Source: a virus. From it: DNA of 23,922 nucleotides. Numbering within the stretch: position 1 is the stretch's first letter; each line of letters begins with the position of its first letter. The position numbers and the translations under genes were made by a program. Where the stretch lies: IMG/VR virus record IMGVR_UViG_3300045999_004907, positions 1 to 23,922 of that record. One strand, written 5' to 3'. The notes below the pieces were generated by a model. That model saw nothing but the letters and a program-made list of their open reading frames with translations, ran no database searches and was not told the DNA's origin. This document shows positions 3,930-15,799 of this stretch, one piece after another.

Positions 3930-4405
3930 AGTGTGAACCTTCCTTTCGGAGTTGTTTGCCTAAAAGGTTGCACGATGTTGTGCAACAGCTTGTTGACAGG
4001 CCGAAGCCCGTGTTCGACAACGATGTCGATGTCGTTCTTGATGCCGAACAACGTGGTGAACGTCTCCAGCATTGGGTTGAGTTCCCTGCATGCGAACCAC
4101 AACGCGTCCTCTAAGTTCAGCGCGTCGTCGATAACATAGTCTCTAAGCTCAACACGCACGCTGAAGCTCCCGATACGTGCGCTGTATCCGACTTTGTCCG
4201 GGTTGAGCCAAGAGCGGCCAGCCAACTCGATATGGCCAACAACGCCTATCTTGTCGCGCCACGATGTCAGCTCCGCGATCCGTCTCGTATCAGCAAGAAC
4301 GAAGCGTGCGTACCAAGTCGCTTGCGGTAGGAAACCCCTAGCTAATGGCACCGTGTCTATCTTCAAGTCTTCCAACTTAAAAGGAGAATTTGTTGAGGAT
4401 GTCAT
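3926..4405 (-). CDS. Unrecognised 159-residue protein
   Basis: The likely start is ATG 4405, which lies 29 bases inside the end of the DUF3150-like gene. A TTG one base after that gene's stop is an alternative start but has no ribosome site. From residue 11 on, the sequence (LKIDTVPLARGFLPQATW) is clearly protein-like. It alternates strands (GHIELAGRSW, GSFSVRVELRDYVI) and ends in a helical part (NPMLETFTTLF) and a basic tail. Neighbours suggest a role with the MoxR/vWA/DUF3150 operon, but no domain is recognised. Confidence 0.65.
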   Translation of the reverse strand: MTSSTNSPFKLEDLKIDTVPLARGFLPQATWYARFVLADTRRIAELTSWRDKIGVVGHIELAGRSWLNPDKVGYSARIGSFSVRVELRDYVIDDALNLEDALWFACRELNPMLETFTTLFGIKNDIDIVVEHGLRPVNKLLHNIVQPFRQTTPKGRFTL

Positions 4406-5255
4406 CAACGGCTTTCTTGGTGTCTTGGCGCAGCGCTTCATCTTTGCGCAGGTCTTTGGGGTCAACGCCGCACAGCGTCTGCTCAAGGGCTTTGCGTGCG
4501 GCTTCGAGGTCCAGATCATTGACCACGTTGAGTGTCTTGGTCAAGTCGCACAGCTCCAAGGCACCATCGACAAGGCTGTCGTGGAACCTGCGGGCCTTGG
4601 CTTCGCCCTCAACGTAGTCGGTGGTGAGCCGGTCAGACATGCGCTTCAAATGATCCCCGAGGCGCTGGCGTACGTCCTGCATGGCGGCGTCCACACGCTC
4701 TTGTGCAATGCGCTCCAGCTTGGCCTTGATGTCGTCCATCGCAGCGTTGCCCACGTCCACACGGAAGTCGCCCGCAGTAGGCACGGGCAGGTAGTTCACA
4801 CGGAAGGCAAACTTGGTCATGATCTCGTTCTGTGAAGGGAAGTCGTTGCGCTGAAACATATCACCCAAGGCCATGGCCTGCGCTGTAATGAGCGTGGGAT
4901 AGATGTTGACGAACGACTCGACCATCAATGCGAACTCGTCCTCGAAGCCGTTCATCTTGGTAGCGAAGCGCTCGAAGTTGGCAGTAGGCAGCAAGCGCAG
5001 GCCCGAGTCAGACCATGGCAGCGTGTGGTCGTACACGTAGGTGCGAGCACGGCCAATCATCTGTTGAATAACCTCCAGCTCTGTGCGCCCTGCAAGCAGG
5101 TGCTTGTTGACGCGTGCTGCATCCTTGGCCGCAGCGTTCTTGGATGTGACGATCTCGTCTGTTGCGCCCCTGTCCAGCTTGCGTGCGGTCCACACGCTGG
5201 CGTTGAATTCGGTGAGCATGGCGCAGGTATCAAGGTTATAGCGAGTTGTGTTCAT
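4377..5255 (-). CDS. DUF3150-like coiled-coil protein of the MoxR-vWA operon
   Basis: The protein has 292 residues and starts with ATG after AGGAGAACCAACC. The opening, with TEFNASVWTARKLDR, resembles the start of DUF3150 proteins (a beta strand, then W-(S/T)-x-R-K-L). Typical of that family too are a middle region of helices and a central segment around FRVNYLPVP, followed by a long charged helix (about 175-225: DDIKAKLERIAQERVDAA) likely to form a coiled coil. DUF3150 genes often lie beside MoxR-type ATPase and von Willebrand A genes, and both are upstream in this operon. I infer it is the third, probably adaptor or target, component. The family call is from memory of the pattern. Confidence 0.6.
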   Translation of the reverse strand: MNTTRYNLDTCAMLTEFNASVWTARKLDRGATDEIVTSKNAAAKDAARVNKHLLAGRTELEVIQQMIGRARTYVYDHTLPWSDSGLRLLPTANFERFATKMNGFEDEFALMVESFVNIYPTLITAQAMALGDMFQRNDFPSQNEIMTKFAFRVNYLPVPTAGDFRVDVGNAAMDDIKAKLERIAQERVDAAMQDVRQRLGDHLKRMSDRLTTDYVEGEAKARRFHDSLVDGALELCDLTKTLNVVNDLDLEAARKALEQTLCGVDPKDLRKDEALRQDTKKAVDDILNKFSF

Positions 5256-5270
5256 GGTTGGTTCTCCTTA

Positions 5271-5498
5271 TCAGATGTTGCTTGCGTTGGTGAAGTGATA
5301 CTTGAGCGCACGCAAAGCAATGCGCTCAATGTGGGCTTGTTGGTACGAGACAATGTTGGTGCTGACTACTTGCATGTTGAGCTGTAAGTAGTTCACAATG
5401 ATCTTCTCCACTGCATCGACGACTGCGCGTTGTATTGCCTCGTCGTGATCTGCGAGCAAGACCGTGTTGGCCAGTGCGTTGGGTATCGGTTGGTTCAT
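5271..5498 (-). CDS. Unrecognised 75-residue helical protein
   Basis: It starts after GGAGAACCAACC, the same leader as the next gene. The sequence is mostly helical: NTVLLADHDEAIQRAVVDAV, then a hydrophobic helix with Gln-rich patches (NYLQLNMQVVSTNIVSYQQ), then RALKYHF. The start codon overlaps the stop of the preceding gene (ATGA), and its own stop lies 15 bases before the DUF3150-like gene. It sits inside the MoxR-vWA operon, so a role in that complex is possible. No family recognised. Confidence 0.65.
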   Translation of the reverse strand: MNQPIPNALANTVLLADHDEAIQRAVVDAVEKIIVNYLQLNMQVVSTNIVSYQQAHIERIALRALKYHFTNASNI

Positions 5499-5755
5499 GG
5501 TTGGTTCTCCAGTTGTTGGTGGTACATCATTTCGCAGAGCAAGATCGTGCTCTGCACCATCTGCCGTTGCTCGTCAGCGCTGACTGCGTAGAAGTCGTGC
5601 ATGAATGCCACGACTGGTGGGCTAAAGCCCGGCTCCGAGTAGGTGCCGTAGATGATCTGCCCTGATTGGTTGAACGGGGGCCTGACAAAAAGGGGGCGCT
5701 CCCCTCGTCGGTACTGCCCCCTCGGGCGGAAGTCGAAGTCAATGCCTTTGCTCAT
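5495..5755 (-). CDS. Unrecognised 86-residue protein
   Basis: ATG 5755 follows GAGG about ten bases upstream and forms an ATGA overlap with the gene before it; an upstream in-frame Met has no ribosome site. The N-terminal 30 residues are rich in Arg, Phe and Pro (DFDFRPRGQYRRGERPLFVR) and look extended. The C-terminal half is a helix with Met and Gln clusters (SADEQRQMVQSTILLCEMMY). Placed between the vWA protein and the DUF3150-like protein, it may be a small partner of that complex. No family recognised. Confidence 0.6.
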   Translation of the reverse strand: MSKGIDFDFRPRGQYRRGERPLFVRPPFNQSGQIIYGTYSEPGFSPPVVAFMHDFYAVSADEQRQMVQSTILLCEMMYHQQLENQP

Positions 5756-5976
5756 GCTGCACACCTCACAAGGTTGATGCACGTATCACGCAACGCGTTG
5801 GTGAGAGGCGCACTGGTGGTGAACTCAGCCAGCACGTACACGACGCTTGTGGGGCGCTTGGCCTCCACTGCGTACATGTAAGGTGCCCCGAAGTGCACAC
5901 GCCTGACCCGGAAGTCAAACATGTCCACCGTGACGGGTTTACACAGTTTCCACTTGACCAGCTCAGGCTCGCTCAT
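5752..5976 (-). CDS. Unrecognised 74-residue protein
   Basis: ATG 5976 overlaps the stop of the metallopeptidase/vWA gene by ATGA and has GAGG upstream. The protein reads as beta strands (VTVDMFDFRVRRVHFG, YMYAVEAKRPTSVVYVLAEF) with a short C-terminal helix carrying two Cys. It ends in another ATGA overlap. Strict start/stop coupling on both sides suggests a fixed ratio with its neighbours. No family recognised. Confidence 0.6.
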   Translation of the reverse strand: MSEPELVKWKLCKPVTVDMFDFRVRRVHFGAPYMYAVEAKRPTSVVYVLAEFTTSAPLTNALRDTCINLVRCAA

Positions 5977-7163
5977 GGACGAATCCTCAACACCTTGCCT
6001 GCGCGTGGCATGAAGTCTTCGTTGTCCACGACACCCCACAAGGTCGGCATGTCGGTCATGCGGTAGTCGGACTCGATGTAGCCATCGGTCAGCATGATGA
6101 CAGCCTTGGCCTTGATCTTGTGCTCGGCCACGTAGTCAGCAACACATGACACAACAGTGCCGCCACCGCCCTTGGGTGCAAGCTGCGTGGCAATGTCTTG
6201 GTACTGCTCGGGCTTGAACACTTGATCGCCGCACACCTCCGTGTCCCACCACAGCATGCGCACGCTGTCGGGCCGTGTGTTCTGCACGATACGCGCCACC
6301 TCACCGAACACAACAGGGTATGCCCAGTGCATGGAGCCTGACGTGTCACACGCAATGACGATCTCGCCAATGTTCTCGTCGAAGTGCGAAGGCATGATGA
6401 AGCCGGACGCAAGCAAGCGCTTGTTAGGTGGGCAAAAGCGTGAGTTCTCGTCGCCAACGCACACAGAACTGATGAAGTCCTGCAACGCATCGCGCCAGTT
6501 GGTCACGCGCTCCTGCGCTGTGCCAAGGATGTCACGGCCACCCTCTTTATCGCCACGCATCTTGCGCACAAGCAACTCGCCTTGGCGGTTGGCATCGTCG
6601 ACCATCTTGCCCAGCTTCTCGGACTCCTCGGGCGTCATGGGGTCACCACCACCCTCGCCGTTCATCTGGTGGTCGTCCATGGCCTGCGGCTGTTGCTCTT
6701 CGTCAGCATCCTTGAGCAACTCTTGCAGCACCTGCGGGTACGACATGCCCTTGAACTTCTCGTCGAACAAGACGCTGATCTTGGCGGGGAAGTCCATGAA
6801 CTTGCGGTCAGGGTCAAGCTCGTCGATCAGGCCGTTGACCACGTAGTCCATGGCCGCGTTGTTGATCTGCGGACCGAAGCGCTTGCTGTACCCAATGTAC
6901 GCTGGCAAGACGCAGTGCTTGAGCGCCACGTGGAAGTTCTCGTGCAGCACAACGAAGCGCAGCTCCTTGCGTGTCAGGTCACTGATGAACGCGGTGCCGT
7001 ACATCTTGTCCTTGCCGTTGGTTGCAGCAGTGGGCATGTCATCACATGCCTCGGACTTGCCCATGCACACGATGCCGGACAGCAGCGCGAATTTGTGGTG
7101 ACGCATCACGTCGATGTTGCACGCTTGGATTTTCTGGTTGGGGGTAAGTTTGTCAAAGCTCAT
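5973..7163 (-). CDS. Zincin-like metallopeptidase / von Willebrand A protein
   Basis: This 396-residue protein resembles the DUF2201 type, a metallopeptidase-like N-terminal domain joined to a vWA domain. His74-Glu-Asn-Phe-His78 (in VVLHENFHVALKH) is a zincin HExxH motif. An acidic, Gln/Gly-rich linker (about 152-185) follows. The vWA part has the MIDAS residues Asp273-Thr-Ser-Gly-Ser277 (ACDTSGSM), Thr336 after GGGG, and Asp360 in MLTDG. All key residues are present, so metal binding by both domains is likely. Such proteins pair with MoxR ATPases, which remodel a target through the vWA partner. Start chosen after AGGAGAAGCAACC. Peptidase activity is inferred from HExxH only. Confidence 0.85.
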   Translation of the reverse strand: MSFDKLTPNQKIQACNIDVMRHHKFALLSGIVCMGKSEACDDMPTAATNGKDKMYGTAFISDLTRKELRFVVLHENFHVALKHCVLPAYIGYSKRFGPQINNAAMDYVVNGLIDELDPDRKFMDFPAKISVLFDEKFKGMSYPQVLQELLKDADEEQQPQAMDDHQMNGEGGGDPMTPEESEKLGKMVDDANRQGELLVRKMRGDKEGGRDILGTAQERVTNWRDALQDFISSVCVGDENSRFCPPNKRLLASGFIMPSHFDENIGEIVIACDTSGSMHWAYPVVFGEVARIVQNTRPDSVRMLWWDTEVCGDQVFKPEQYQDIATQLAPKGGGGTVVSCVADYVAEHKIKAKAVIMLTDGYIESDYRMTDMPTLWGVVDNEDFMPRAGKVLRIRP

Positions 7164-7510
7164 GGTTGCTTCTCCTGTTGAAGTTCAGTGGGGTGAAATA
7201 GCTCTCGGGTGAGAGGTTCTTCGTAGACCACAACATAATCGCTTATGCCGTAGTGGAGCGCCCACAAGTGGGCGACTGTGTCACGCGCTGCCTCTAGCAT
7301 GGCCTTCGTGTGCGTGGCGTTGTCGAAGACTTGACGGTGTATCAGGCGCACCACCTTGTCCTTGACGCCGCGCCCGACATAGAGAGACACGGCGGTCTTG
7401 CCCTTGGCAACACCCTTCCATATCCTAGACACGATCACGATGTCCCCGTCTATGTTGCGGCAGTACAGATCGGTGCGTGGGCGCGTCAGTGAGTACAGCG
7501 AGTCCGTCAT
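7160..7510 (-). CDS. Unrecognised 116-residue protein between MoxR and vWA genes
   Basis: ATG 7510 has AGGAG about nine bases upstream and overlaps the stop of the gene before it; its own stop overlaps the vWA start. The first half is strand-rich (RNIDGDIVIVSRIWKGVAKG, KTAVSLYVGRGVKDKVVR). The second half holds a helix (HTKAMLEAARDTVAHLWALH) and an acidic end. It could be a small regulator of the ATPase-vWA pair, judging only by position. No family recognised. Confidence 0.65.
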   Translation of the reverse strand: MTDSLYSLTRPRTDLYCRNIDGDIVIVSRIWKGVAKGKTAVSLYVGRGVKDKVVRLIHRQVFDNATHTKAMLEAARDTVAHLWALHYGISDYVVVYEEPLTRELFHPTELQQEKQP

Positions 7511-7848
7511 TTCAGCTTACTCCTCAGTGCGTACTCAGTGCCGTGCTTCACAGCAAACAGATCGCACATGGTTCGCAGCATGCGGTTCTTCTCCGCCTTG
7601 GGCGTGTCACGCGGCACAAACATGCGGTGCAAGATGATGCGTTGAACCATAGCGGGCTTCCCGGCCAGCAGCTTCCCGGCCAGCACCTTGTCGTACCAGT
7701 AAGCGTACACGGAGAGCATTGCCCACCCCTCCTTGTACGCCGCTTTAGCGTCGAGCCGCAGCGCCCCTTTCGGGGTACGCAGCAGCTCCTCGATGACTAT
7801 ATTCTCAGCCACATAGTCGTACTTGTTCATTGCGCGTACTGTGCTCAT
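7507..7848 (-). CDS. Unrecognised 113-residue protein following MoxR
   Basis: ATG 7848 lies three bases after the MoxR stop and has no clear ribosome site, which suggests translation by coupling. A second Met seven codons in is an alternative. The protein is basic and helical: EELLRTPKGALRLDAKAAYK, a Tyr/Trp-rich helix (MLSVYAYWYDKVLAGK), then MFVPRDTPKAEKNRMLRT. It ends in an ATGA overlap. Adjacent KLLAG/KVLAG units (LAGKLLAGK) come from a near-direct repeat of about 15 bases at 7660-7690. No family recognised. Confidence 0.65.
   Translation of the reverse strand: MSTVRAMNKYDYVAENIVIEELLRTPKGALRLDAKAAYKEGWAMLSVYAYWYDKVLAGKLLAGKPAMVQRIILHRMFVPRDTPKAEKNRMLRTMCDLFAVKHGTEYALRSKLK
7660..7688 (-). 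repeat. Short direct repeat inside the gene after MoxR
   Basis: The block CTTCCCGGCCAGCA on the plus strand occurs twice in close succession (about 7656-7685, the second copy followed by CCTTGTCG), giving the LAGKLLAGK peptide. It looks like a recent slip duplication of 15 bases, in frame. Confidence 0.5.
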
Positions 7849-7851
7849 GAC

Positions 7852-8976
7852 TTACTTCGTGCTGAAGAAAATCTTGTGCGATGCCAAGAGCGAACCGAAG
7901 TTCGTCAACGACACATAGTGCGCAATGTTGGACGAGTTGGCCACGCTGTTGCAGAAGATCGACTGCATCTCTGTGCGCATGCGCAGCACGTACTCAACAA
8001 CCTTGGCCGCATCGTCGCGGTTGTCAACGCGTGAGACGAACTGGAACACCTGCACAAGCTGAGCAGTGGGGTTGTCGGCCAGCGGCGCAGTCGCAGGGTC
8101 TTTGAGCACACGTTCGAGCGAGCAGATGTCACGGCCAAAGCGTACGAATGAAGACAGCGCCTCGGCAGTCGTGGCACCCAGCGTACCGATCAACGCAGCC
8201 TCCAGCGTGTCATCGTCGAGCACACCGTCACCAGCATCGAGCACGTCACCCGCTGCAACCAAGCTGCGCGGCGTAGCGTAGGCCAGTGCCATCGAGCGAG
8301 GGTTGAAGATGTAGCCGTTGTCCTTGTCTTGCTGCTTGCCCTCGTGCTTGCCGCCCTTCTCGTAGTCGAGAAACGAGTCCATGACCTGCGCGTAGCTGTT
8401 GACGAACGCGATCACCGAAGCGTTGACGCCCTTGTCGATGGCCCACTGCACCCACTCGCCAGCGGTAGGCTTGCGCATCTTGACGAACACGAGACGGTTG
8501 CGCAGGTGCGCTTGAATGCTATCGCCAAGACCCTCAACAGCCAAGTTGGTTGCACAGAACACCACGCTACCCTCGGGCATGTGGTAGTTGCCCACGCGGC
8601 GCTCGTAGATGATCGGGGCCAGCACGTTCTTGATGAACTGCGGAGCCTTGGCGATCTCGTCGAGGAACACCATGATTGGCTTGGCATCGTTGACACCCAT
8701 CTGATTGGTGCGCGATACACCGAAGCGCTCGTTTGGCAACTCACGTGACACGCCGTTCTCGCGGTCGAGGTCAGGCATCCACACAGAACCATCGGACAAC
8801 TGTGTGCAATCGACGGGGTCAACTGCGATGTGGCCAGCGAACTTGGGGTGCTTCTTGAGCGCGTGGAACAGCGCGGTCTTGCCTATGCCGTTCTCGCCCT
8901 CGACGATGACGGTACGCTTGTCGCCAACAGCGGCGATGAGGTTGAGGACTTGAGTGAAAGAAAGCATTTTGTTCAT
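7852..8976 (-). CDS. MoxR-type AAA+ ATPase
   Basis: This 374-residue AAA+ ATPase carries Walker A Gly27-Glu-Asn-Gly-Ile-Gly-Lys-Thr34, Walker B at 101-107 (IMVFLDE), a sensor-1 Asn144 (CATN) and Arg159/Arg161 (LRNRL) as candidate arginine finger. The C-terminal 200 residues are helical. MoxR-type ATPases form rings that remodel or load partners, usually through a vWA protein; that partner is three genes downstream in the same operon. The ATG has AGGAG ten bases upstream, and a promoter with a palindrome precedes the gene. Similar ATPase-vWA pairs are, from memory, known in N4-like phages. The cellular target is unknown. Confidence 0.85.
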   Translation of the reverse strand: MNKMLSFTQVLNLIAAVGDKRTVIVEGENGIGKTALFHALKKHPKFAGHIAVDPVDCTQLSDGSVWMPDLDRENGVSRELPNERFGVSRTNQMGVNDAKPIMVFLDEIAKAPQFIKNVLAPIIYERRVGNYHMPEGSVVFCATNLAVEGLGDSIQAHLRNRLVFVKMRKPTAGEWVQWAIDKGVNASVIAFVNSYAQVMDSFLDYEKGGKHEGKQQDKDNGYIFNPRSMALAYATPRSLVAAGDVLDAGDGVLDDDTLEAALIGTLGATTAEALSSFVRFGRDICSLERVLKDPATAPLADNPTAQLVQVFQFVSRVDNRDDAAKVVEYVLRMRTEMQSIFCNSVANSSNIAHYVSLTNFGSLLASHKIFFSTK

Positions 8977-9006: not shown

Positions 9007-9026
9007 GTGAGACACAGAGGTCTCAC
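9007..9026. repeat. GTGAGAC palindrome copy 1 (loop 6)
   Basis: Perfect arms GTGAGAC and GTCTCAC flank ACAGAG. It lies in the 5' leader of the MoxR operon, downstream of the predicted promoter. On the leftward strand the hairpin is followed after four bases by five T, so this copy could weakly terminate or pause transcription. Confidence 0.85.
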
Positions 9027-9052
9027 GGGGTTAAAAACAACTGATGAGGTAG

Positions 9053-9080
9053 TGTATATCATTTGTCCATTGTTTGACAA
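9053..9080 (-). promoter_or_regulatory. Candidate sigma70-type promoter for the MoxR operon
   Basis: Reading leftward, TTGTCA (9075-9080) and TATACA (9053-9058) are 16 bases apart, close to TTGACA/TATAAT. They lie about 75 bases upstream of the MoxR start, in a 150-base gap that is A+T richer than the genes around it. The copy-1 palindrome falls about 27 bases downstream of the -10, inside the predicted leader RNA. No experimental support. Confidence 0.5.
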
Positions 9081-9097
9081 CTCCTTTGCAAAAAGAT

Positions 9098-9112
9098 TGA
9101 TGACCGTTCCTT
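9098..9112. repeat. TGATGACCGTTCCTT repeat, copy without a start codon
   Basis: The 15-mer TGATGACCGTTCCTT occurs exactly at 3755-3769, where it is the ribosome site and start region of a gene, and here, where no ATG follows. A third copy with one inserted C is at 13356-13371. This one lies just after the stop of the 321-residue gene. Confidence 0.7.
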
Positions 9113-9126
9113 CTCTCCCTGATACG

Positions 9127-10092
9127 TCAGGGGTAGGGCGTGGCTGTGTTGGGGAAGTCTTTCACGTCCATGAACGGGGCCAGTTGGATGGCGTCGGACT
9201 TGCGCTTGAGGGTGCTGCACTCTCGCTTGGCTATTCTCCACAACGCGTCAGCCAGAGTCTTCTCTGTAACGTGTTCCAGTATGGATTCGTTGGGGTAGCG
9301 CTCCGCCACCTTGACCGCCTCGTAGTCGAACACATCCTCGGCCAGTCGCATGAACTCAGCGATGTGCCTTTCTTGTGACTCCGGCTTGAGTGCGGCGAAC
9401 TGTCCTGATGCAAGCGAATCTAACGCGGCACGCTCGGCATAATCTACGTCAACCCCTTGGAACGGTTCGAGCAAGTCGTAGTCGAGGTACACACGCCCAA
9501 GGAATTCGGGTATGCGCATGCAGGCCAGCGTAATGAGGTTCTCCATGTTGGCCCGCGCTTGCTTGTGCGCGGCCTTGTCGTCGGGGCTCATGCGCTTGAC
9601 GTAGTGTGTTGTGTGCGATGACTTGGCCACGTCGAGGCGCAGGCCGTAGAGCACCTCATGCTTAACCAGCCACAGGTCAGCGCTGAACGAGGAGCCTTTG
9701 TCTGGGATGCTGTCTCTGTTGGCGATAGGCACTGCCACAGTGCGCCCGTCCGTCGTCATCCACGTGTTTTGATGGCGCACATTGAGCACGTGGCGCATGA
9801 ACTGTTTGCTCATGTTGGAGGGGTGCCCGGTGTACAGCACGCGCCGCCCGTCTGCTGTTGGTTTGTAGTAGCGTGCCATCACGGTACTGTGCAGGATCAC
9901 ATCGTAGTACTCGCCCTCGTTGATGCGCTCGATGCGGTAGTGCCACGAGCGGTTGTCCTTGAGCGGGCGTTGGTTGTCGTTCCACTTCTGTGTGCTGCGT
10001 GGGCCTTTTGGGCGCGGCGTGTTGTTGAACGTGCTGTGTGCTGCCTCCCACGTCTCGATGCTGGGCAGCGTGTGAATGGATGATGAAAACAT
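9127..10092 (-). CDS. Unrecognised 321-residue protein
   Basis: It starts after AGGAGAAGCAACC. The N-terminal third is polar and Asn/Pro/Arg-rich (TFNNTPRPKGPRSTQKWNDN). The middle is strand-rich, with the segments YDVILHSTVMARYYKP and RRVLYTGHPSNMSKQ. The C-terminal half is helical and acidic (FMRLAEDVFDYEAVKVAERY). A HTTHYVKRMSPDDKAAHKQ stretch at about 163-181 contains several His. No catalytic motif is clear and I do not recognise a family. It is the last gene of its block: a promoter and palindrome follow before the MoxR operon. Confidence 0.7.
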   Translation of the reverse strand: MFSSSIHTLPSIETWEAAHSTFNNTPRPKGPRSTQKWNDNQRPLKDNRSWHYRIERINEGEYYDVILHSTVMARYYKPTADGRRVLYTGHPSNMSKQFMRHVLNVRHQNTWMTTDGRTVAVPIANRDSIPDKGSSFSADLWLVKHEVLYGLRLDVAKSSHTTHYVKRMSPDDKAAHKQARANMENLITLACMRIPEFLGRVYLDYDLLEPFQGVDVDYAERAALDSLASGQFAALKPESQERHIAEFMRLAEDVFDYEAVKVAERYPNESILEHVTEKTLADALWRIAKRECSTLKRKSDAIQLAPFMDVKDFPNTATPYP

Positions 10093-10116
10093 GGTTGCTT
10101 CTCCTTGGGTTGGTGA

Positions 10117-10485
10117 TTAAAAACTTGTGCGGATGGAGCTGACAGGATCGACGTACTCCCACAGCTCGAACTCGTGCCCTTCCTCCTGCACTTCGATGTC
10201 GGTGGTCTCTTCCCCTATGCGTACGAAGCGCCACTCGGCTTCGTACAGCTCGGTCGCGTCGCGCATCATTTGGTGGTGCACCTGCACATCGGGGTAGCTG
10301 TCGTACCACTTCACATCGCCCGCCTTGAATGTGATGACGGGGTCATCTGTTTGATCGTGGGTCGTGTCGTTGATGGCCTCCGTCACAATCGGGTCGTTCT
10401 TGGCCAGCACGAGCGTGACAAAGGCATCACGATGCTCGATGGTGTCGAACTTGATGACGTACGCTACTTCTGATCTGTATCCCAT
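10117..10485 (-). CDS. Conserved phage protein of MGYRSxVAY type
   Basis: I chose ATG 10485 because it follows AGGAGAAGCAACC; the frame upstream runs into the palindrome. The 122-residue protein opens MGYRSEVAYVIKFDTIEHRD and continues with alternating strands and an acidic C-terminus (DIEVQEEGHEFELWEYVDP). Proteins opening MGYRSxVA are, from memory, common and conserved in many phages, without known function. The acidic strand-rich second half would suit a protein-binding role, which is inference. Confidence 0.7.
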   Translation of the reverse strand: MGYRSEVAYVIKFDTIEHRDAFVTLVLAKNDPIVTEAINDTTHDQTDDPVITFKAGDVKWYDSYPDVQVHHQMMRDATELYEAEWRFVRIGEETTDIEVQEEGHEFELWEYVDPVSSIRTSF

Positions 10486-10506
10486 GGTTGCTTCTCCTAG
10501 TGTTGT

Positions 10507-10525
10507 GTGAGACGACATGTCTCAC
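10507..10525. repeat. GTGAGAC palindrome copy 2 (loop 5)
   Basis: Arms GTGAGAC and GTCTCAC flank GACAT. It lies in the 46-base gap between two leftward genes, 21 bases before the start codon at 10485 and next to that gene's ribosome site. Confidence 0.85.
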
Positions 10526-10531
10526 GGTTGA

Positions 10532-10807
10532 TTACTCGGTAAGAACTTCTTGCATGTAGCGCACGAGACCGCGCACACCGCCGAACTTTTTCCTGATATG
10601 GGTGTGGTTGGTCCCAGTACCCCATTCGTTTCCCGGGGGTTTGTGTCGCCACGTACCTGTGGTGGGCCACAGGTGGTACTCGTGCCTGCGGCCGAGCCGG
10701 TCTGTGTTGTACACGATGATGTGTTCGCCGTGGTTGTGTACAGTGAACTCCAGACCCGCTACCGTCAAGATGGTCGGCGCGACCAAGACCCACTCGCTTG
10801 GTGTCAT
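10532..10807 (-). CDS. Unrecognised 91-residue protein
   Basis: ATG 10807 overlaps the stop of the gene before it (ATGA), with only a weak GGGG ribosome site, so coupling probably drives it. The protein is strand-rich at first (VLVAPTILTVAGLEFTVHNH, EHIIVYNTD). It continues with an Arg/Gly/His/Trp-rich middle (RRHEYHLWPTTGTWRHKPPG) and a C-terminal amphipathic helix (GVRGLVRYMQEVLTE). No family recognised. Confidence 0.65.
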   Translation of the reverse strand: MTPSEWVLVAPTILTVAGLEFTVHNHGEHIIVYNTDRLGRRHEYHLWPTTGTWRHKPPGNEWGTGTNHTHIRKKFGGVRGLVRYMQEVLTE

Positions 10808-11484
10808 ACCAACACCCCGTCCTCGTCGAACATCCAGCCGTTGGCTTCGGCGGCTTCGATCAGTGACTCCTCACTGGTGAGGTAGTCGTGCTCGGACTCA
10901 AGGTCTTTGTATATCTGCCGTGCGTAGGCCTGTGCCTCTTCGAGTATCCACGTCTCAAGGGCGTCGATCAGTTGGTCGATGTCCGCACCCTTGTACAGTT
11001 GGTAGACGTTCGCACGTTGCAGCGGGCCTTCCTCTTGCAAGCGCTCTTCATCGTCCTCGTCGAGGCATTCGAGGTTGCTGTAGCTGATGCTCTCAAGGCG
11101 CATCATGTTGTCGTGCACGTAGTGGAAGCCGCTGCGGTTGACGTTGGTGTAGCGCTCGACCCAGTCGTACCCCTCGTTGAGGATGGCTTGCAGCACGAAG
11201 TACCGGCCGTAGTCGGGGTGATCTTCCTTGAGGTGGTAGTCGAGGAACTCTTTGATGCGCACGCCCCCTGTCCACGATGCGCCATCACCTTGGGACCAGA
11301 AGCCTGAGAAGCGTATGTCGTCAATCTCGAAGCCACGTTCAGGCCCGTCTGCTTTGGCGTTCTCGTACACACCGTCCCACCATTCGTGATCCAGCGATTC
11401 GCTGAACCACTGCAACGCCTTGTCCTTGGCACGTTGGCTGAGTTCTTGATAGCTGAACTCTGTCTGTTCGATTTCATTTTCCAT
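10804..11484 (-). CDS. Unrecognised acidic 226-residue protein
   Basis: The start is ATG 11484, after GAGGAG with seven bases between. The N-terminus has the pattern EFSYQELSQRAKDKALQWF, which I have seen at the start of several uncharacterised phage and plasmid proteins. The rest is rich in Asp, Glu, Trp and Tyr (RFSGFWSQGDGASWTGGVR) and ends in two acidic helices. The very acidic character and many aromatic residues could suit DNA mimicry or protein binding, but I see nothing decisive. The start overlaps the previous gene by 11 bases. Confidence 0.7.
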   Translation of the reverse strand: MENEIEQTEFSYQELSQRAKDKALQWFSESLDHEWWDGVYENAKADGPERGFEIDDIRFSGFWSQGDGASWTGGVRIKEFLDYHLKEDHPDYGRYFVLQAILNEGYDWVERYTNVNRSGFHYVHDNMMRLESISYSNLECLDEDDEERLQEEGPLQRANVYQLYKGADIDQLIDALETWILEEAQAYARQIYKDLESEHDYLTSEESLIEAAEANGWMFDEDGVLV

Positions 11485-11644
11485 CTTTGTGCTCCTCAAT
11501 GTCGGTCACGTTGTTCTCGCCGTAGTTGGCGCTGTGATGCGGGAACAAGCGCCATGCGTACTCCTCGGCTTGCTCCTTGTCTTTGGCCTGCACCTCGATG
11601 GTGTAGAACTCGATTGCTTGGATGTGTACTGTGTACGCTTTCAT
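11474..11644 (-). CDS. 56-residue protein
   Basis: It starts MKAYTVHIQAIEFYTIEVQA with AAGGAGAACGAGCA before the ATG, then has an amphipathic helix (KDKEQAEEYAWRLF). That order suits a single beta-beta-alpha unit. It overlaps the stop of the preceding gene (ATGA) and the start of the next by 11 bases. A small protein of this shape often acts as a binding partner. No family recognised. Confidence 0.65.
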   Translation of the reverse strand: MKAYTVHIQAIEFYTIEVQAKDKEQAEEYAWRLFPHHSANYGENNVTDIEEHKDGK

Positions 11645-11970
11645 TGCTCGTTCTCCTTGGGTTGATCCATCTTCACAACGATTCCTGCAGCGGCCACCAT
11701 TGACTGCGCCATGAGGTGCAGGTCTTGCATCTCTTTCTTGGCAGTCAGCAGCACGTTGACTGCGGCGGCTTTGGTCATGTCCTTCATGAGTAGCTCAAAC
11801 GCCTCGGGCTTGCGCTTGAGTAGCTTCTGGATGATCGGCAGAGCTTGCCGTTCCTCATATGTGAGGGCGATCTTGGGTTTCTTTTCTTCAGTCATTGCTT
11901 GCTCCTCTTTTGTTGTGCGGTCACCCGCGAAGTTGCGGACAAAATGTCCGCGATTGTCTTTGTGGTTCAT
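11641..11970 (-). CDS. Unrecognised 109-residue helical protein
   Basis: Two starts are plausible. ATG 11970 has AAGGAG upstream and an ATGA overlap. ATG 11895 (84 residues, MTEEKKPKIALTYEERQ) has AGGAG six bases before it. I give the longer one because of the overlap. The first 25 residues (MNHKDNRGHFVRNFAGDRTT) are unlike the rest and include a perfect 17-base palindrome. From residue 26 the protein is basic then helical, with an Ala/Val-rich segment (TKAAAVNVLLTAKKEM). No family recognised. Confidence 0.6.
   Translation of the reverse strand: MNHKDNRGHFVRNFAGDRTTKEEQAMTEEKKPKIALTYEERQALPIIQKLLKRKPEAFELLMKDMTKAAAVNVLLTAKKEMQDLHLMAQSMVAAAGIVVKMDQPKENEQ
11935..11951. repeat. 17-base perfect palindrome GCGGACA-N3-TGTCCGC
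   Basis: GCGGACA and TGTCCGC flank AAA. It lies just upstream of the internal start at 11895, at the distance of an operator or RNA hairpin controlling that start. Its TGTCC core resembles the TGTCCA sites of the 14.3-14.6 kb region. Confidence 0.7.
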
Positions 11971-12242
11971 TCCTCATTCTCCTTTGCTTGTTGACGGTAT
12001 GCGTTGAGTGTGTGCCACTTGTCTAGCTCCTGTGTTGACATGACCTGCACTGCGGCGCTGCGCTGCGTATCGAACAGCGCGAAGCGGTACTCGTAGTTGT
12101 TCTCGTGGCCTACGTACCCGGTCTGCTTGCCCACGTAGTGCTCCTCGATGGTCTCTGCCTGCTCAGCAAGGGCCACCATGGCGTCGAGCTGCTCTGCTGT
12201 GAGCAACAGCTCAGCGTTGCCGAATCTGATCTTGAATCTCAT
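11967..12242 (-). CDS. Unrecognised 91-residue protein
   Basis: ATG 12242 follows AAGGAGAAAGCAA and overlaps the stop of the gene before it. The N-terminus (MRFKIRFGNAELLLTAEQLD) is a strand-turn-helix, followed by Glu/Ala-rich helices, a Tyr-rich strand (GHENNYEYRFALFD) and a last helix (STQELDKWHTLNAYRQQ). An N-terminal strand, TAEQLD and long helix recall small phage adaptor proteins, but the match is not specific. No family recognised. Confidence 0.65.
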   Translation of the reverse strand: MRFKIRFGNAELLLTAEQLDAMVALAEQAETIEEHYVGKQTGYVGHENNYEYRFALFDTQRSAAVQVMSTQELDKWHTLNAYRQQAKENEE

Positions 12243-12541
12243 TTGCTTTCTCCTTGTAGTTTGATAAGCCACCGCGTGGCGTCGATGCGGTACGTGTTGA
12301 GCTTCGGCCACTTGCGCATGGCCGCTGCGCTGATGATGCACTTGACATCCGGGGCCTCGTGTATGCCCGACTTGTTGATGCGCAGTTTCTCCACCGGTAC
12401 GTGCAGCACCATGAAGCCGTGCGCCTGCAAGTGCGCGAGCACTGCGGCGTAGTCCACCGTCGTGACGGTCTTGGTCGGCAGCGCCATAGGTTGTGCGGCT
12501 GTCATGTGCGCGGGCAGTGCCCACAAGCTGATTCTTTTCAT
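12239..12541 (-). CDS. Unrecognised 100-residue protein
   Basis: I chose ATG 12541, which follows GGAGAGCAGG and overlaps the stop of the 45-residue gene (ATGA). The sequence has a helix (DYAAVLAHLQAHGFMVLHVP), a basic middle with HEAPDVKCIISAAAMRKWPK, and a C-terminal basic helix. The alternation resembles a small helix-turn-helix domain, but I would not call one from this. No family recognised. Confidence 0.65.
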   Translation of the reverse strand: MKRISLWALPAHMTAAQPMALPTKTVTTVDYAAVLAHLQAHGFMVLHVPVEKLRINKSGIHEAPDVKCIISAAAMRKWPKLNTYRIDATRWLIKLQGESK

Positions 12542-12675
12542 CCTGCTCTCCAATAAAACAAGTCCAACAAGAGGACGACAGTGCACGCCGTGTAGATGGC
12601 GCACGTGATGTAGCGTGAGACGGGTTGTCTCACGTGTGTGGGGATGGGCTTTGCTGGCCCGGTGTATCGTTTCAT
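12538..12675 (-). CDS. 45-residue membrane-anchored miniprotein
   Basis: ATG 12675 follows GGAGAGATC. A basic N-terminal segment (MKRYTGPAKPIPTHVRQ) is followed by a hydrophobic stretch (TCAIYTACTVVLLLDLFYW) that looks like one transmembrane helix. Arg and Lys before it predict a cytoplasmic N-terminus. Both ends overlap neighbours by ATGA. The GTGAGAC palindrome copy 3 lies inside the coding sequence and encodes VRQPVSR. Function unknown. Confidence 0.6.
   Translation of the reverse strand: MKRYTGPAKPIPTHVRQPVSRYITCAIYTACTVVLLLDLFYWRAG
12614..12634. repeat. GTGAGAC palindrome copy 3 (loop 5), inside a gene
   Basis: The arms extend to eight bases here, CGTGAGAC and GTCTCACG, around GGGTT. 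It lies within the 45-residue miniprotein gene and is kept although coding. Confidence 0.85.
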
Positions 12676-12824
12676 GATCTCTCCATTCCTTTGTCAGCTA
12701 TGCGCCGGATCAGCGCGAAGGCATACGCACGTGCGAGCGCTGTCTGGTCTTTCTCCGACAGCATGTCCCACGCATGGCGCATGATTTTTTCGAGGGCGTC
12801 GATGGCCTTGTCAAGTTCGTGCAT
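12672..12824 (-). CDS. 50-residue helical protein
   Basis: ATG 12824 has AGGAG six bases upstream; a second ATG two codons earlier touches that site and is less likely. The protein reads MHELDKAIDALEKIMRHAWD and MLSEKDQTALARAYAFALIR, two or three amphipathic helices with Ala and Leu on one face. It overlaps the miniprotein gene by ATGA. Likely a small oligomer; no family recognised. Confidence 0.6.
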   Translation of the reverse strand: MHELDKAIDALEKIMRHAWDMLSEKDQTALARAYAFALIRRIADKGMERS

Positions 12825-12834
12825 GGCCATCTCC

Positions 12835-13272
12835 TCACAACATCTCACGCAGAACATCTTTGACCTTCTCGTCCCAGTCAATGTTGTCCAGCTCCTCGTC
12901 CACTTGCGTGGTGATGATGTCCTTGACCTGATCCTCTGTGACCCAGCCTTTTTGCGTGCGGGCGTACTCGGCCAGCGTCTCACGTGCGGTGTCAGCGGCG
13001 AGCTGCTCCACGTTTGCTTCGTCCAAGTGATCGCTGCTGCCCTCGTGGTCGAGCATGCGGTTCTCGATCATGGTCTCGATGCGTTTGTGCAGCTCCTCGT
13101 CCATGAGCTTGAGCGCGTTGCGGTTGGCCAGCATGGCGTGGAACTTGGTCTCCACCAGCATGTCGATGTGCATGGTGAACTGGTTGAGCAGCGCGTCGAT
13201 GAGCGTGTGGTGCACAGCGTGGGCTGGCTGTTGGGGTTCGGCCATTGTGATGGGCATGTCGTTGAGGTTCAT
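12835..13272 (-). CDS. Unrecognised 145-residue acidic helical protein
   Basis: ATG 13272 has GGAG nine bases upstream; an in-frame ATG five codons earlier has none. The protein has a His/Met-rich helix (ALLNQFTMHIDMLVETKFHA), then Glu/Arg-rich coils (EELHKRIETMIENRMLD), and a strongly acidic C-terminus (TTQVDEELDNIDWDEKVKD). It ends 10 bases before the next gene. A nearby palindrome half-site encodes ARETLAE. Possibly a coiled-coil structural or regulatory protein; no family recognised. Confidence 0.65.
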   Translation of the reverse strand: MNLNDMPITMAEPQQPAHAVHHTLIDALLNQFTMHIDMLVETKFHAMLANRNALKLMDEELHKRIETMIENRMLDHEGSSDHLDEANVEQLAADTARETLAEYARTQKGWVTEDQVKDIITTQVDEELDNIDWDEKVKDVLREML

Positions 13273-13296
13273 GATTGCGTTCTCCATAAGTTGTTT

Positions 13297-13313
13297 GCCA
13301 GTGGCCGACTGGC
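13297..13313 (-). repeat. Hairpin GCCAGT-N5-ACTGGC
   Basis: A perfect six-base stem around GGCCG lies in the 108-base gap before the 145-residue gene, about 25 bases upstream of its start codon and just downstream of palindrome copy 4. It could shape the leader RNA. Confidence 0.45.
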
Positions 13314-13321
13314 AGCGGTTT

Positions 13322-13340
13322 GTGAGACATTGCGTCTCAC
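13322..13340. repeat. GTGAGAC palindrome copy 4 (loop 5)
   Basis: Arms GTGAGAC and GTCTCAC flank ATTGC. It lies between two leftward genes and close to the third TGATGACCGTTCC(C)TT repeat at 13356-13371, the same pairing as seen near 9.0-9.1 kb. Confidence 0.85.
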
Positions 13341-13380
13341 GGGTTCAAGAAAGGTTGATGACCGTTCCCTTGGGGAAGGA

Positions 13381-14250
13381 TCACATGTCCTCCCACGGTA
13401 TGGCTGACCAGTCCGTGGTGGTTGGTGCAGGCACGAAAACCTCCGGTGGTTTGACCGGCTGTTTGATCTCGGGCCATGGTGGGGGCATGGGCAAGCCCGC
13501 CTCGCGCCGCGCTTTGATTCGCTCAAGCCGTGCCTTGGGGCTACCGTCCTTGGCCAGTGAGGACACTTTGGGCGGCACACGTTCGTCTGGTGAGGGCACG
13601 TGCGTGGCCAAGCTGGGCAGTCGAGCTCGTTTGCGGTACTCGGGCGGCAGGGTCTCCCACAAACGCTTGATGCGCAGGCGCTCTTCCCACTCAATGTAGT
13701 TCTCCCACTGCATGTGCTGGGGTGGCAGACCTTTGCCCTGCCACATGAACTTGATACGCTCCCGTGTCTGGGTGAGCACCAGCTTGTATTCCAAAAAGAA
13801 TGTAAGGTCGAGGTCAGGCCAAGCGTTCTTGACGTGCTTCTCTTGCTGCTGCGTGGATGCCAGCTCCTTGCGTATTCCCGCCATGACTTCGGTCCACGGC
13901 GCAGTCTTGGCCGTACGCCACACGGCGCTGGTGGCCATCTGCCTGTTGATCGTTGCCTTGATCTTGCGTTTCTCCAGCTCAGCGTTGGCGATGCGGGCGT
14001 ACAAATCCCCGCTGTTGACGCGGTTGTGGATTTCTTTGGTCGTGAGTTCGCTCAAACCTTTGGCGCGGGGTTGGCATGCCTTGCACATGGATGACTCGAT
14101 TTCCACAGGGGCGTTGCCTGAATAACCCCGCGCTCTGGCCTGTGCTCGGGATAGGTCTCGCTTGAACTCAGCCAGTGGTTTGATGTTTTTGCAGGTCGCA
14201 CACATGGCGGCATGCGTGCCCGGTGCAGGTGAAAGATAACAGTTTTCCAT
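13381..14250 (-). CDS. Zinc-finger-like 289-residue protein
   Basis: Start chosen at ATG 14250, after GGAGCAAACC; a longer reading begins at 14292 with no ribosome site. Cys17-x2-Cys20 (CATCKNIKPLAEFKRD) and Cys56-x2-Cys59 (SMCKACQPR) frame a basic loop, a pair typical of zinc ribbons or degenerate HNH-type folds. A long basic helical region follows, with Trp-rich parts, and the C-terminus is Pro-rich (LPMPPPWPEIKQPVKPPEVF). No histidine or Asn of a full HNH motif follows the cysteines, so nuclease activity is unlikely to be certain. It sits directly downstream of the candidate origin and may bind it, which is inference from position. Confidence 0.7.
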   Translation of the reverse strand: MENCYLSPAPGTHAAMCATCKNIKPLAEFKRDLSRAQARARGYSGNAPVEIESSMCKACQPRAKGLSELTTKEIHNRVNSGDLYARIANAELEKRKIKATINRQMATSAVWRTAKTAPWTEVMAGIRKELASTQQQEKHVKNAWPDLDLTFFLEYKLVLTQTRERIKFMWQGKGLPPQHMQWENYIEWEERLRIKRLWETLPPEYRKRARLPSLATHVPSPDERVPPKVSSLAKDGSPKARLERIKARREAGLPMPPPWPEIKQPVKPPEVFVPAPTTTDWSAIPWEDM

Positions 14251-14276
14251 GGTTTGCTCCAATGATGATGTAACGA

Positions 14277-14305
14277 AGTGTACATTGTCCACCTCTTATA
14301 AGCAA
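14277..14305 (-). promoter_or_regulatory. Candidate promoter for the zinc-finger gene
   Basis: Reading leftward, TTGCTT (14300-14305) and TACACT (14277-14282) are 17 bases apart, 27 bases before the ATG at 14250. A TGTCCA hexamer lies in the spacer and another begins two bases from the -35, so a protein that binds these sites could regulate the gene. Match to consensus is only fair. Confidence 0.4.
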
Positions 14306-14609
14306 GTGGACACCCGAATGGGACAGCGGAAAGCCTTTGTTTATGCGGGTTGCGGGGGGTGCTGACCCACATGACTATCAAATCCCGAAAGAGCAAAGCT
14401 GGACAAAGCCACGGGATAAGTTCTGTCCACTTGCACGCACATATATACATATATCTCTAAATCTCTATTTATATATAGTAGTGTTCTGGACAGTGGGTGT
14501 GGGACGCTAGTATCCATGCGGGTTACAGGACGCCCACGTGTTGTCCACGGCGTTGTAAACAGTGGACATGCAAAATTTGCATAGTTTCTCCACAACGTGT
14601 TACCAAAGA

Positions 14610-14634
14610 CCCGTGAGACACGGTGTCTCACGGG
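14610..14634. repeat. GTGAGAC palindrome copy 5 (10-base stem)
   Basis: The longest stem of the family: CCCGTGAGAC and GTCTCACGGG around ACGGT. It follows the stop of the 63-residue gene by 11 bases on the leftward strand and has only a weak T tract after it (TCTTTGG), so it may act as a 3' hairpin. Confidence 0.85.
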
Positions 14635-14645
14635 GGTGGATCGCT

Positions 14646-14837
14646 TCACTTGAAGCGGAGCTGGCGTGTGCCTGCCTTGTAGGTGTCCCATGCAGCGTCA
14701 CGGGCGCGAGCCTCTTCGATGACCTTGCGCTTGTAGGCTTTGTCGGTGGCGAGGTGCACGAAGTCCTCACGCAGGGCGCGCAGCTTGGTGCGCTCAGTCT
14801 CACGGATGCTGATGGTGTAACGGTTACGGTTGCTCAT
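14646..14837 (-). CDS. 63-residue basic helical protein
   Basis: ATG 14837 follows GGAGCACACC. The sequence MSNRNRYTISIRETERTKLR followed by Arg/Lys/Ala-rich helices ends with DTYKAGTRQLRFK. An opening strand of alternating polar residues and long basic helices would fit a small ribbon-helix-helix or coil DNA binder, but no signature is secure. Its IRET codons hold a palindrome half-site (GTGAGAC). It sits between the terminator after the first early gene and the candidate origin. Function unknown. Confidence 0.65.
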   Translation of the reverse strand: MSNRNRYTISIRETERTKLRALREDFVHLATDKAYKRKVIEEARARDAAWDTYKAGTRQLRFK

Positions 14838-14852
14838 GGTGTGCTCCAAGTG

Positions 14853-14871
14853 GTGAGACGCTGTGTCTCAC
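14853..14871. repeat. GTGAGAC palindrome copy 6 (loop 5)
   Basis: Arms GTGAGAC and GTCTCAC flank GCTGT, 15 bases upstream of the 63-residue gene's start codon, in its leader and just beyond the terminator at 14875-14900. Confidence 0.85.
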
Positions 14872-14874
14872 GGA

Positions 14875-14900
14875 TAAAAGAAAGCCCGGACAAGCCGGGC
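14875..14900 (-). terminator. Rho-independent terminator after the first leftward gene
   Basis: On the leftward strand GCCCGG-N5-CCGGGC (14884-14900) is followed directly by TTTCTTTT (14876-14883). That is a standard intrinsic terminator shape and orientation. It lies about 95 bases after the stop of the 143-residue gene. Hairpins at 14908-14921 (GCCAGC-TC-GCTGGC) and 14975-14993 (CGATTG-N7-CAATCG) lie just upstream of it. Confidence 0.75.
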
Positions 14901-14994
14901 GGTTGGTGCCAGCTCGCTGGCGCTTTGCTGGGTTGACAGTGGGCGGAACAACGGCCACCCCTCGAATGCAGAGTCGATTGAAAAAACCAATCGG

Positions 14995-15426
14995 TTACTC
15001 AAACTTGATAGTCTCGCGCACAGCGGCCAGCAAAGCCACGACTTCGGCCTTGGTCAAACCAGCGCACACGTCAACGATGGCGTTGACCTTGGCACGCTTC
15101 ACGGCAACGGGTTGGTGATGGTGAGACCGGGCTGTCTCACCAGTGCTGAAGTGAACCCCGACGTTACGACTCCAAGACTTCTGGGCAGCAACGTGACGCG
15201 TCTCACGTGTTGACTCAGGGCCAGTGTGAAACACGGCTGTACCCTTGGCGCTCCAAGTCGTATTGCACGCATAGTGCTTGGCGTGCACCTTGGCCAGTGC
15301 TGCCAGCAACTCAGGGTGAGACACGGATGTCTCACGTACAGCGGCCTGTAATGCAGCACCGTATGACGTGCCAGCCTTGAGGAATGCAGCGTAGCCAGCG
15401 GCTACAGTTTTGATAGAGCAGTTCAT
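14995..15426 (-). CDS. First leftward gene: unrecognised 143-residue protein
   Basis: ATG 15426 has GGAG ten bases upstream and lies about 70 bases after the predicted promoter, so this should be the first gene transcribed leftward. It ends in a helical part (LTKAEVVALLAAVRETIKFE) and opens with Ala-rich helices (KTVAAGYAAFLKAGTSYGAA). The middle is His/Arg-rich. Three palindromes of the GTGAGAC family lie in the gene, all in the same frame, giving E-T-x-x-S-H type peptides (VRETSVSHPE, GETARSHHH). A terminator follows. First genes of phages often alter the host, so a host-takeover role is possible but not shown. Confidence 0.65.
   Translation of the reverse strand: MNCSIKTVAAGYAAFLKAGTSYGAALQAAVRETSVSHPELLAALAKVHAKHYACNTTWSAKGTAVFHTGPESTRETRHVAAQKSWSRNVGVHFSTGETARSHHHQPVAVKRAKVNAIVDVCAGLTKAEVVALLAAVRETIKFE
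15120..15141. repeat. GTGAGAC palindrome copy 7 (loop 6), inside the first leftward gene
   Basis: GGTGAGAC and GTCTCACC, an eight-base stem, flank CGGGCT. Coding, in the E-T-A-R-S-H frame. Confidence 0.85.
15191..15208. repeat. Decayed GTGAGAC palindrome copy
   Basis: ACGTGA and TCACGT frame CGCGTC: the GTCTCAC arm is intact and the other reads GTGACGC. It lies midway between copies 7 and 8 in the same gene and encodes TRETRHV. Confidence 0.6.
15316..15335. repeat. GTGAGAC palindrome copy 8 (loop 6)
   Basis: Arms GTGAGAC and GTCTCAC flank ACGGAT inside the first leftward gene, encoding RETSVSH. Same frame and loop length as copy 7. Confidence 0.85.
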
Positions 15427-15492: not shown

Positions 15493-15498
15493 GCCTCT

Positions 15499-15507
15499 AT
15501 TATACCA
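15499..15507 (-). promoter_or_regulatory. Extended -10 promoter for leftward early genes
   Basis: Reading leftward, TGGTATAAT is a perfect extended -10 (TGn then TATAAT). No good -35 is found at 16-18 bases, as expected for extended -10 promoters. It precedes the first leftward gene. A second, weaker leftward candidate is TTGACA (15721-15726) with TTTAAA 18 bases further on. Confidence 0.65.
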
Positions 15508-15524: not shown

Positions 15525-15799
15525 CGTATCAGAAGGGGCAAACGGCGTACCGCAGACCCCACCCACCCCCCACCAAGCCTTTATGCAGCAGACAGGGCGA
15601 GCTTGCAAGAACACTGTTTGGCACCCGCTCCCAGCACTTTGTAAAAACTTTGACAAACCCACCCCCTTGCGCAAGAAATGCGCCCCACTCCAATTTTTTA
15701 AAAAAGACCCAAGAAACCCCTGTCAAACACTAGACACGCCCCACACGTTCCAAAAATGGGTGTACATTACGCCCAACGAGGTTACACGGCCTACGCAAT
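15525..15799. other. Noncoding gap between early and late genes
   Basis: No gene is supported in these 275 bases. They hold a C-rich run (C4-A-C3-A-C6-A-C2, 15557-15574), a rightward TTGACA (15650-15655) with a poor -10 (AAGAAA) and the palindrome CTTGCGCAAG (15666-15675) in its spacer, and TTTTTTAAAAAA around 15700. The rightward promoter for the head genes should be here or be of a phage-specific type; none is convincing. Confidence 0.5.

Follow-up and report, generated by a model that had tools for sequence, protein, structure and literature searches.

A repeated palindrome family in the early operon of an aquatic phage group covaries with the N-terminal domain of the first early gene product, its probable cognate regulator

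The temperate phage phiC31 carries repeated inverted-repeat operators (CIRs) that lie between genes of the early region, are associated with promoters and are served by one phage repressor (c), and in phage P1, likewise temperate, one C1 repressor acts on many dispersed operators whose sites are asymmetric. The lambdoid N protein recognises RNA with a conserved loop, and Q acts at one promoter-proximal site. In the cluster A mycobacteriophages (L5, Bxb1) many short stoperators of one genome-specific sequence are located mostly off promoters in short intergenic spaces, and the cognate repressor and the stoperator motif covary between phages (PMC6550527, PMC9283540). Here we describe a palindrome that occurs eight times in the early operon of a 23.9-kb phage contig (IMG/VR record IMGVR_UViG_3300045999_004907, hereafter ‘the window’, meaning the whole stretch analysed), the copies of which, as judged from sequence comparison, probably serve the first early gene product as operators and would together form a dispersed operator/stoperator set shutting down early transcription.

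The cluster A stoperators and, as general background, the phiC31 CIRs are the nearest described systems. As in cluster A, many copies of one genome-specific site are present, mostly away from promoters, and the cognate protein and the site vary together between phages. In contrast to the asymmetric, orientation-dependent 13-mers of cluster A, however, the present sites are dyads with N2–N4 centres; the proposed regulator finds no match among known families or folds, whereas the cluster A repressor is a monomer with two helix-turn-helix-type domains; and no integrase or ParABS-type match was found, unlike in the temperate cluster A phages. Because of the dyad site, the different kind of protein and the lack of detectable temperate functions, the system seems stoperator-like in its working but not a member of that class. 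Like the CIRs, the palindromes are repeated in the early region and are intergenic, except for three window sites inside open reading frames (ORFs), but they show no promoter enrichment and belong to phages without detectable temperate functions. One proposed regulator with many dispersed sites recalls P1 C1, although the sites are dyads, and a first early gene with phage-specific protein–site pairs recalls lambdoid N/nut and Q, from which the present family differs in its fixed stems, free centres and five to ten dispersed sites.

The original prediction, made from the sequence alone, comprised eight perfect GTGAGAC-N5/6-GTCTCAC palindromes, and all eight were recovered where it had placed them. 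Two lie within the first early gene, which encodes an unannotated protein of 143 amino acids (14995–15426, minus strand), one in its 5′ part (15316–15335) and the other at 15121–15140. The third (14853–14871) is located between the terminator of this gene and the ribosome-binding site (RBS) of a 67-amino-acid ORF with a conserved start at 14837, and the fourth (14613–14631), past that ORF, forms with its flanks a CCC..GGG palindrome with 11-bp arms. The remaining copies are found upstream of a 150-amino-acid ORF (13322–13340), within a 45-codon ORF that starts at 12675 (12615–12633), immediately before the RBS of a gene with its start at 10485 (10507–10525), and between a promoter-like sequence and the gene for a MoxR-type ATPase that follows it (9007–9026). 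The predicted distribution over leaders, intergenic spaces and the inside of two genes was confirmed, two of the three sites in ORFs being those of the first early gene and one that of the 45-codon ORF, and the decayed copy suspected near 15191 corresponds to a half-copy, GTGAGACGCGTCAC, at about 15191–15206 within the first early gene. A 65.4-kb contig (G001) whose ATPase and terminase are 100% identical to those of the window holds the same eight copies only, in agreement with their predicted absence outside 9.0–15.34 kb. No copy arose in 100 dinucleotide-preserving shuffles, compared with the eight observed. Genes left of about 15.43 kb are transcribed leftward and terminase, portal and later genes rightward from 15.8 kb; all eight copies belong to the early operon, in a number above chance. 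The view that the arms are what matters held. A better core is TGAGACA-N3/N4-TGTCTCA with a relaxed innermost pair and G/C flanks, of which the five- and six-base loops are merely the count made from outside.

Using the MoxR-type ATPase (7852–8976), 80 related loci were gathered; the nearest named phages by terminase were DSL-LC04, 023Pt_psg01, HTVC027P, HTVC023P and Planktothrix phage Pag-Yong1 (all 47–52%). The palindrome of the window was present in its closest relatives (L124, L126, L128 and L054), and other relatives with a clear set carried equally repeated palindromes of a genome-specific sequence in the same kind of early region, often in the same slots, while no set was seen in short or partial loci. 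About 14 half-site types were distinguished among the relatives, including TGAGACA of the window and GCGGACA, GCAGACA, GCTGACA, ACAGACA, ATGGACA, GGGAACA, AGGTGCA, AGTATCA, GGGGTTA, GGGAGAA, GTGGAGA and GTGGTCA, and many of them follow a common plan, AACT-n-half-site-N3-half-site′-n-AGTT. Over the whole family, varying spacing does not hold up as an argument against a dimer operator, as most types have a centre of one fixed length, usually three bases: N3 at all 35 GCAGACA, all 23 CGGTTCA and all 20 ACAGACA sites, N2 at 36 of 36 GTGG-type sites and N4 at 16 of 16 GGGGTTA sites. Only the TGAGACA type of the window is truly mixed (77 N3, 25 N4). There are five to ten sites per genome, which in contigs of 62–66 kb are confined to the stretch from the divergent early/late junction to the ATPase. 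No description of these repeats was found in literature searches.

On the sequence comparisons, the pairing of these sites with the N-terminal domain of the first early gene product is highly probable. This product, the proposed sequence-specific regulator, is suggested as such by covariation with arm type, chimeras, trees, partial Mantel correlations and a predicted model; its N-terminal domain (approximately residues 1–100) tracks the site, whereas its helical C-terminal domain is swapped independently. The first early gene of the window was 72% identical to that of G008, which has the same sites, but only 41% identical to that of G006, whose backbone is 97–99% identical to the window at terminase and ATPase and which nevertheless carries GCGGACA sites. 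Among 93 ORFs of G003, only the first early gene clearly separated GCnGACA genomes from the others, scoring about half of self against all compared GCnGACA genomes and 0.17 or nothing against the rest; G005 (GTGGTCA sites), although the nearest compared genome to G003 at many other genes, scored 0.17 of self. Natural chimeric proteins showed the link directly. L134, which has the backbone of the window, carries an N-domain 72% identical to that of L149 (17% to the window) joined to a C-domain 68% identical to that of the window (18% to L149), and its sites are of the L149 type, matching its N-domain. Conversely, L128 and L014 share the N-domain (88 and 87%) and the site of the window but differ from it in the C-domain (38%), and L154 and L149, whose sites differ, are 9% identical in the N-domain and 67% in the C-domain. 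When arm types of 47 loci were placed on trees, 12 changes were required on the N-domain tree (minimum 11), compared with 17 on both the ATPase and C-domain trees and a mean of 33 after shuffling. Partial Mantel correlations with site identity, given ATPase identity, were 0.678 for the N-domain, 0.086 for the C-domain and −0.05 to 0.27 for eight other genes. Next to a conserved Arg, on its C-terminal side, GCGG types have Asp, GCTG types have Asn and GCAG types mostly have Gly; L202, which has GCGG sites in GCAG-like surroundings, has Asp at this place. This pattern is a hint at a reading code, short of proof. The original suggestion of a binding protein was a good guess.

Regulator and sites also occur together. 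A profile of the regulator family matched in 71 loci, and among contigs with GTGAGAC palindromes the regulator was present in 18 of 21 with at least two sites but in only 5 of 98 with a single site. That GTGAGAC palindromes are scattered by chance over unrelated phages was considered and discarded, 98 of 119 loci being single-copy and 93 of these lacking the regulator, as random hits predict. A relative with the same genes but neither palindromes nor an expression change had been named as the case that would speak against a function. The opposite was seen: the distant palindrome-free relatives, namely the pelagiphages HTVC023P and HTVC027P and phage DSL-LC04, also lacked the regulator, with no match to its profile and no palindrome repeated in the examined stretches. 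In contrast, Pag-Yong1 (OL906435) has a site family of its own, CGGTTCA-N3-TGAACCG, which is shared by MinM2 (OQ594354) and has about 35 near-matches genome-wide, late genes included, compared with an expectation of 0.05 from mononucleotide shuffles of a 41-kb stretch; many of these immediately precede RBSs. Such a spread, together with multiple palindromes and one cognate protein, would also suit partition, replication or packaging sites of the ParB–parS kind, bound by the same protein without a role in transcription. This is highly improbable, considering that the sites of the window group are all in the early operon, mostly intergenic and just before RBSs, and that a ParA-type AAA_31 match was obtained in none of 11 genomes.

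Sites of foreign type were found beside those of the resident type. In the window, an exact GCGGACA-TTT-TGTCCGC palindrome at 11935–11951, which was absent from the original list, occupies a slot that holds an own-type site in L134, and is apparently a relic operator of another specificity. Upstream of the ATPase, the slot keeps the promoter-like TTGTCAAACAATGGACAAATGA..TACACT and TCATCACTAGGAGTT..ATG wherever this stretch is shown, but the palindrome that they enclose varies: it is TGAGACA in the window and L128, GGGAACA in L130 and L134, and GGGAGAA in L125 and L127; in L126 and L129 TGAGACA and GCGGACA stand side by side. L068, now of the GGGAGAA type, retains three TGAGACA sites. These exact foreign-type sites are consistent with recombination among differing phage types followed by site-by-site replacement. 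The mosaic early regions and the coexistence of old and new types in L126, L129 and L068 might otherwise point to mobile or recombining linkers that spread as repeats, as the original prediction had also envisaged, but the operator alone is exchanged while flanks, promoter and RBS stay in place, and the sites within a genome are mostly of one type matching one protein domain, which makes this explanation the least credible considered here. A second conserved inverted repeat, GCCAGT-N5-ACTGGC, was observed at approximately 13295–13313, just before the RBS of the 150-amino-acid ORF, and is unchanged where the operator differs.

The palindromes could act as DNA or as RNA. Sites often end 10–60 nt ahead of a start codon, and some form terminator-like hairpins, as would be expected of RNA hairpins near RBSs that are bound by an RNA-binding protein or serve processing or translational control. 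Mismatches between arm pairs, however, showed no bias towards G-U wobble (19 G-U and 32 A-C overall; 9 and 10, respectively, at positions 1–6), and the GTGGTCA, GTGGAGA and AGTATCA groups each have one site that precedes the conserved early −10 box and would not be transcribed from that promoter. In addition, the stem sequence is fixed within a genome while the centre is free, and AGTATCA-type stems are A/T-rich. The RNA hairpin proposed originally was thus rejected on the mismatch test and the site positions, and we regard it as improbable. Given the lack of a G-U preference and the sites that precede the early promoter, double-stranded DNA is most likely the target, a reading that we consider very probable.

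The early promoter of the window has a TATAAT −10 box with an upstream TTTGG (15494–15504, minus strand) and is conserved in relatives; it is preceded by a G-rich run (15555–15574) and by AACAGTGTTC (15609–15618), similar elements being present upstream of the regulator in relatives with different operators. The promoter-like sequence upstream of the ATPase slot, TTGTCA-N18-TACACT (9051–9080, minus strand), is likewise kept in relatives of other site types. No enrichment of −10 boxes was detected around 281 sites, which ruled out operators at promoters only, whereas a start codon with an RBS was found within 150 nt downstream at 229 of 326 sites. These positions favour duplex DNA operators that would work mostly as roadblocks. 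An intrinsic terminator directly follows the regulator gene (14884–14900, minus strand), a terminator-like element is located near the regulator stop at 46 of 65 loci, and leader terminators precede the regulator in L149, L172, L184, L197 and others. The regulator-flanking terminators suggest attenuation or antitermination of the early operon. They leave room for a DNA-loaded activator or antiterminator similar to lambda Q, in which the site-bound product of the first gene of the early operon would let RNA polymerase pass these terminators into the delayed early genes; the site upstream of the early promoter in the GTGG and AGTATCA types would also fit. Loading would require a promoter-proximal site, however, and the sites show no promoter enrichment, number five to ten per genome and extend into late genes among the near-matches of Pag-Yong1, while another terminator occurs within 80 nt downstream at only 35 of 326 sites. 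We therefore consider a Q-like mode rather unlikely.

The working model that we prefer is that of operators and stoperators for the first early gene product. The regulator would probably bind as a dimer in which one TGAGACA half-site is read by each N-terminal domain, while the C-terminal helical domain may provide oligomerisation or another conserved role. Because the sites are located in leaders, between genes and in two ORFs, mostly without a promoter of their own, the bound protein would most likely keep RNA polymerase from initiating at a few promoters and from elongating at the other sites. Repression is on balance the likelier outcome of binding; the regulator would then damp its own synthesis, shut off the early genes and act also on a superinfecting phage of the same site type. 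Among the related phages, recombination would exchange the N-terminal domain, or the domain would diverge, and the sites of the operon would then be changed one by one to fit the new domain, leaving old-type sites behind.

Several observations weigh against this model. The terminator right after the regulator gene, in some relatives also in the leader, would suit antitermination as well. The AlphaFold model of the regulator (m0d30292a92e7) shows three helices, a beta hairpin and a helix, followed by two C-terminal helices, but the models are of moderate confidence (predicted local distance difference test, pLDDT, 75 and 79) and without a match to a solved DNA-binding fold. TGAGACA sites go together with two dissimilar N-domain clades, one window-like and one L038-like; in the 11 kb of L133, whose N-domain is window-like, no clear site family is seen; and protein UMO76074.1 of Pag-Yong1 is tied to the regulator family by a C-terminal motif only. 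In L038, L083, L030, L029 and L091, which carry TGAGACA sites, the N-domain is apparently unrelated to that of the window, possibly reflecting convergent recognition of TGAGACA. Neither Pfam nor PHROG yielded a convincing family for the regulator, and comparison with the PDB by fold and by sequence gave nothing significant; membership of a known regulator family was rejected on these searches.

With respect to lifestyle, no Phage_integrase match was obtained in 18 records and no match to Resolvase, ParA-type AAA_31 or HTH_3 in 11 genomes, and a scan of genome contigs for the ATPase, sensitive only to close relatives, confirmed no relative. A temperate phage was rejected on these grounds, and the phage group of the window looks lytic because neither integrase, resolvase, ParA nor HTH_3 was found. 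The early cluster at 4377–8976, which the window shares with Pag-Yong1 and MinM2, encodes a VWA-like protein besides the MoxR-type ATPase, as well as a protein positioned like that of the DUF3150 gene of MinM2. For about 300 nt past the 67-amino-acid ORF (approximately 14300–14610) no clear gene was recognised; this region is conserved in close relatives, contains an A/T-rich block (TATATATAAATAGAGATTTAGAGATATATGTATATATG) and short inverted repeats, and is possibly a promoter region or a small RNA.

The system is testable in Planktothrix phage Pag-Yong1 (OL906435), a relative that is in culture and has a repeated site family, and the loci provide a large natural set of domain/half-site pairs for an uncharacterised, putative DNA-binding domain. 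Tentatively, lytic phages of a common aquatic group may run an immunity-like system without lysogeny, in which a modular DNA-binding protein of a new class would close the early operon, both their own and that of a superinfecting phage of the same type, and selection for escape would drive a turnover of specificity, from which 14 or more site types, regulators with swapped domains and operators of earlier types would result. That superinfection exclusion is what selects for this is conceivable but less likely than not. A further question is why an immunity-like specificity should diversify in phages in which no lysogeny genes are detectable. An entire regulon, its sites together with the cognate domain, appears to have been re-addressed repeatedly between close phages, and the chimeras and leftover sites expose the steps of this rewiring.

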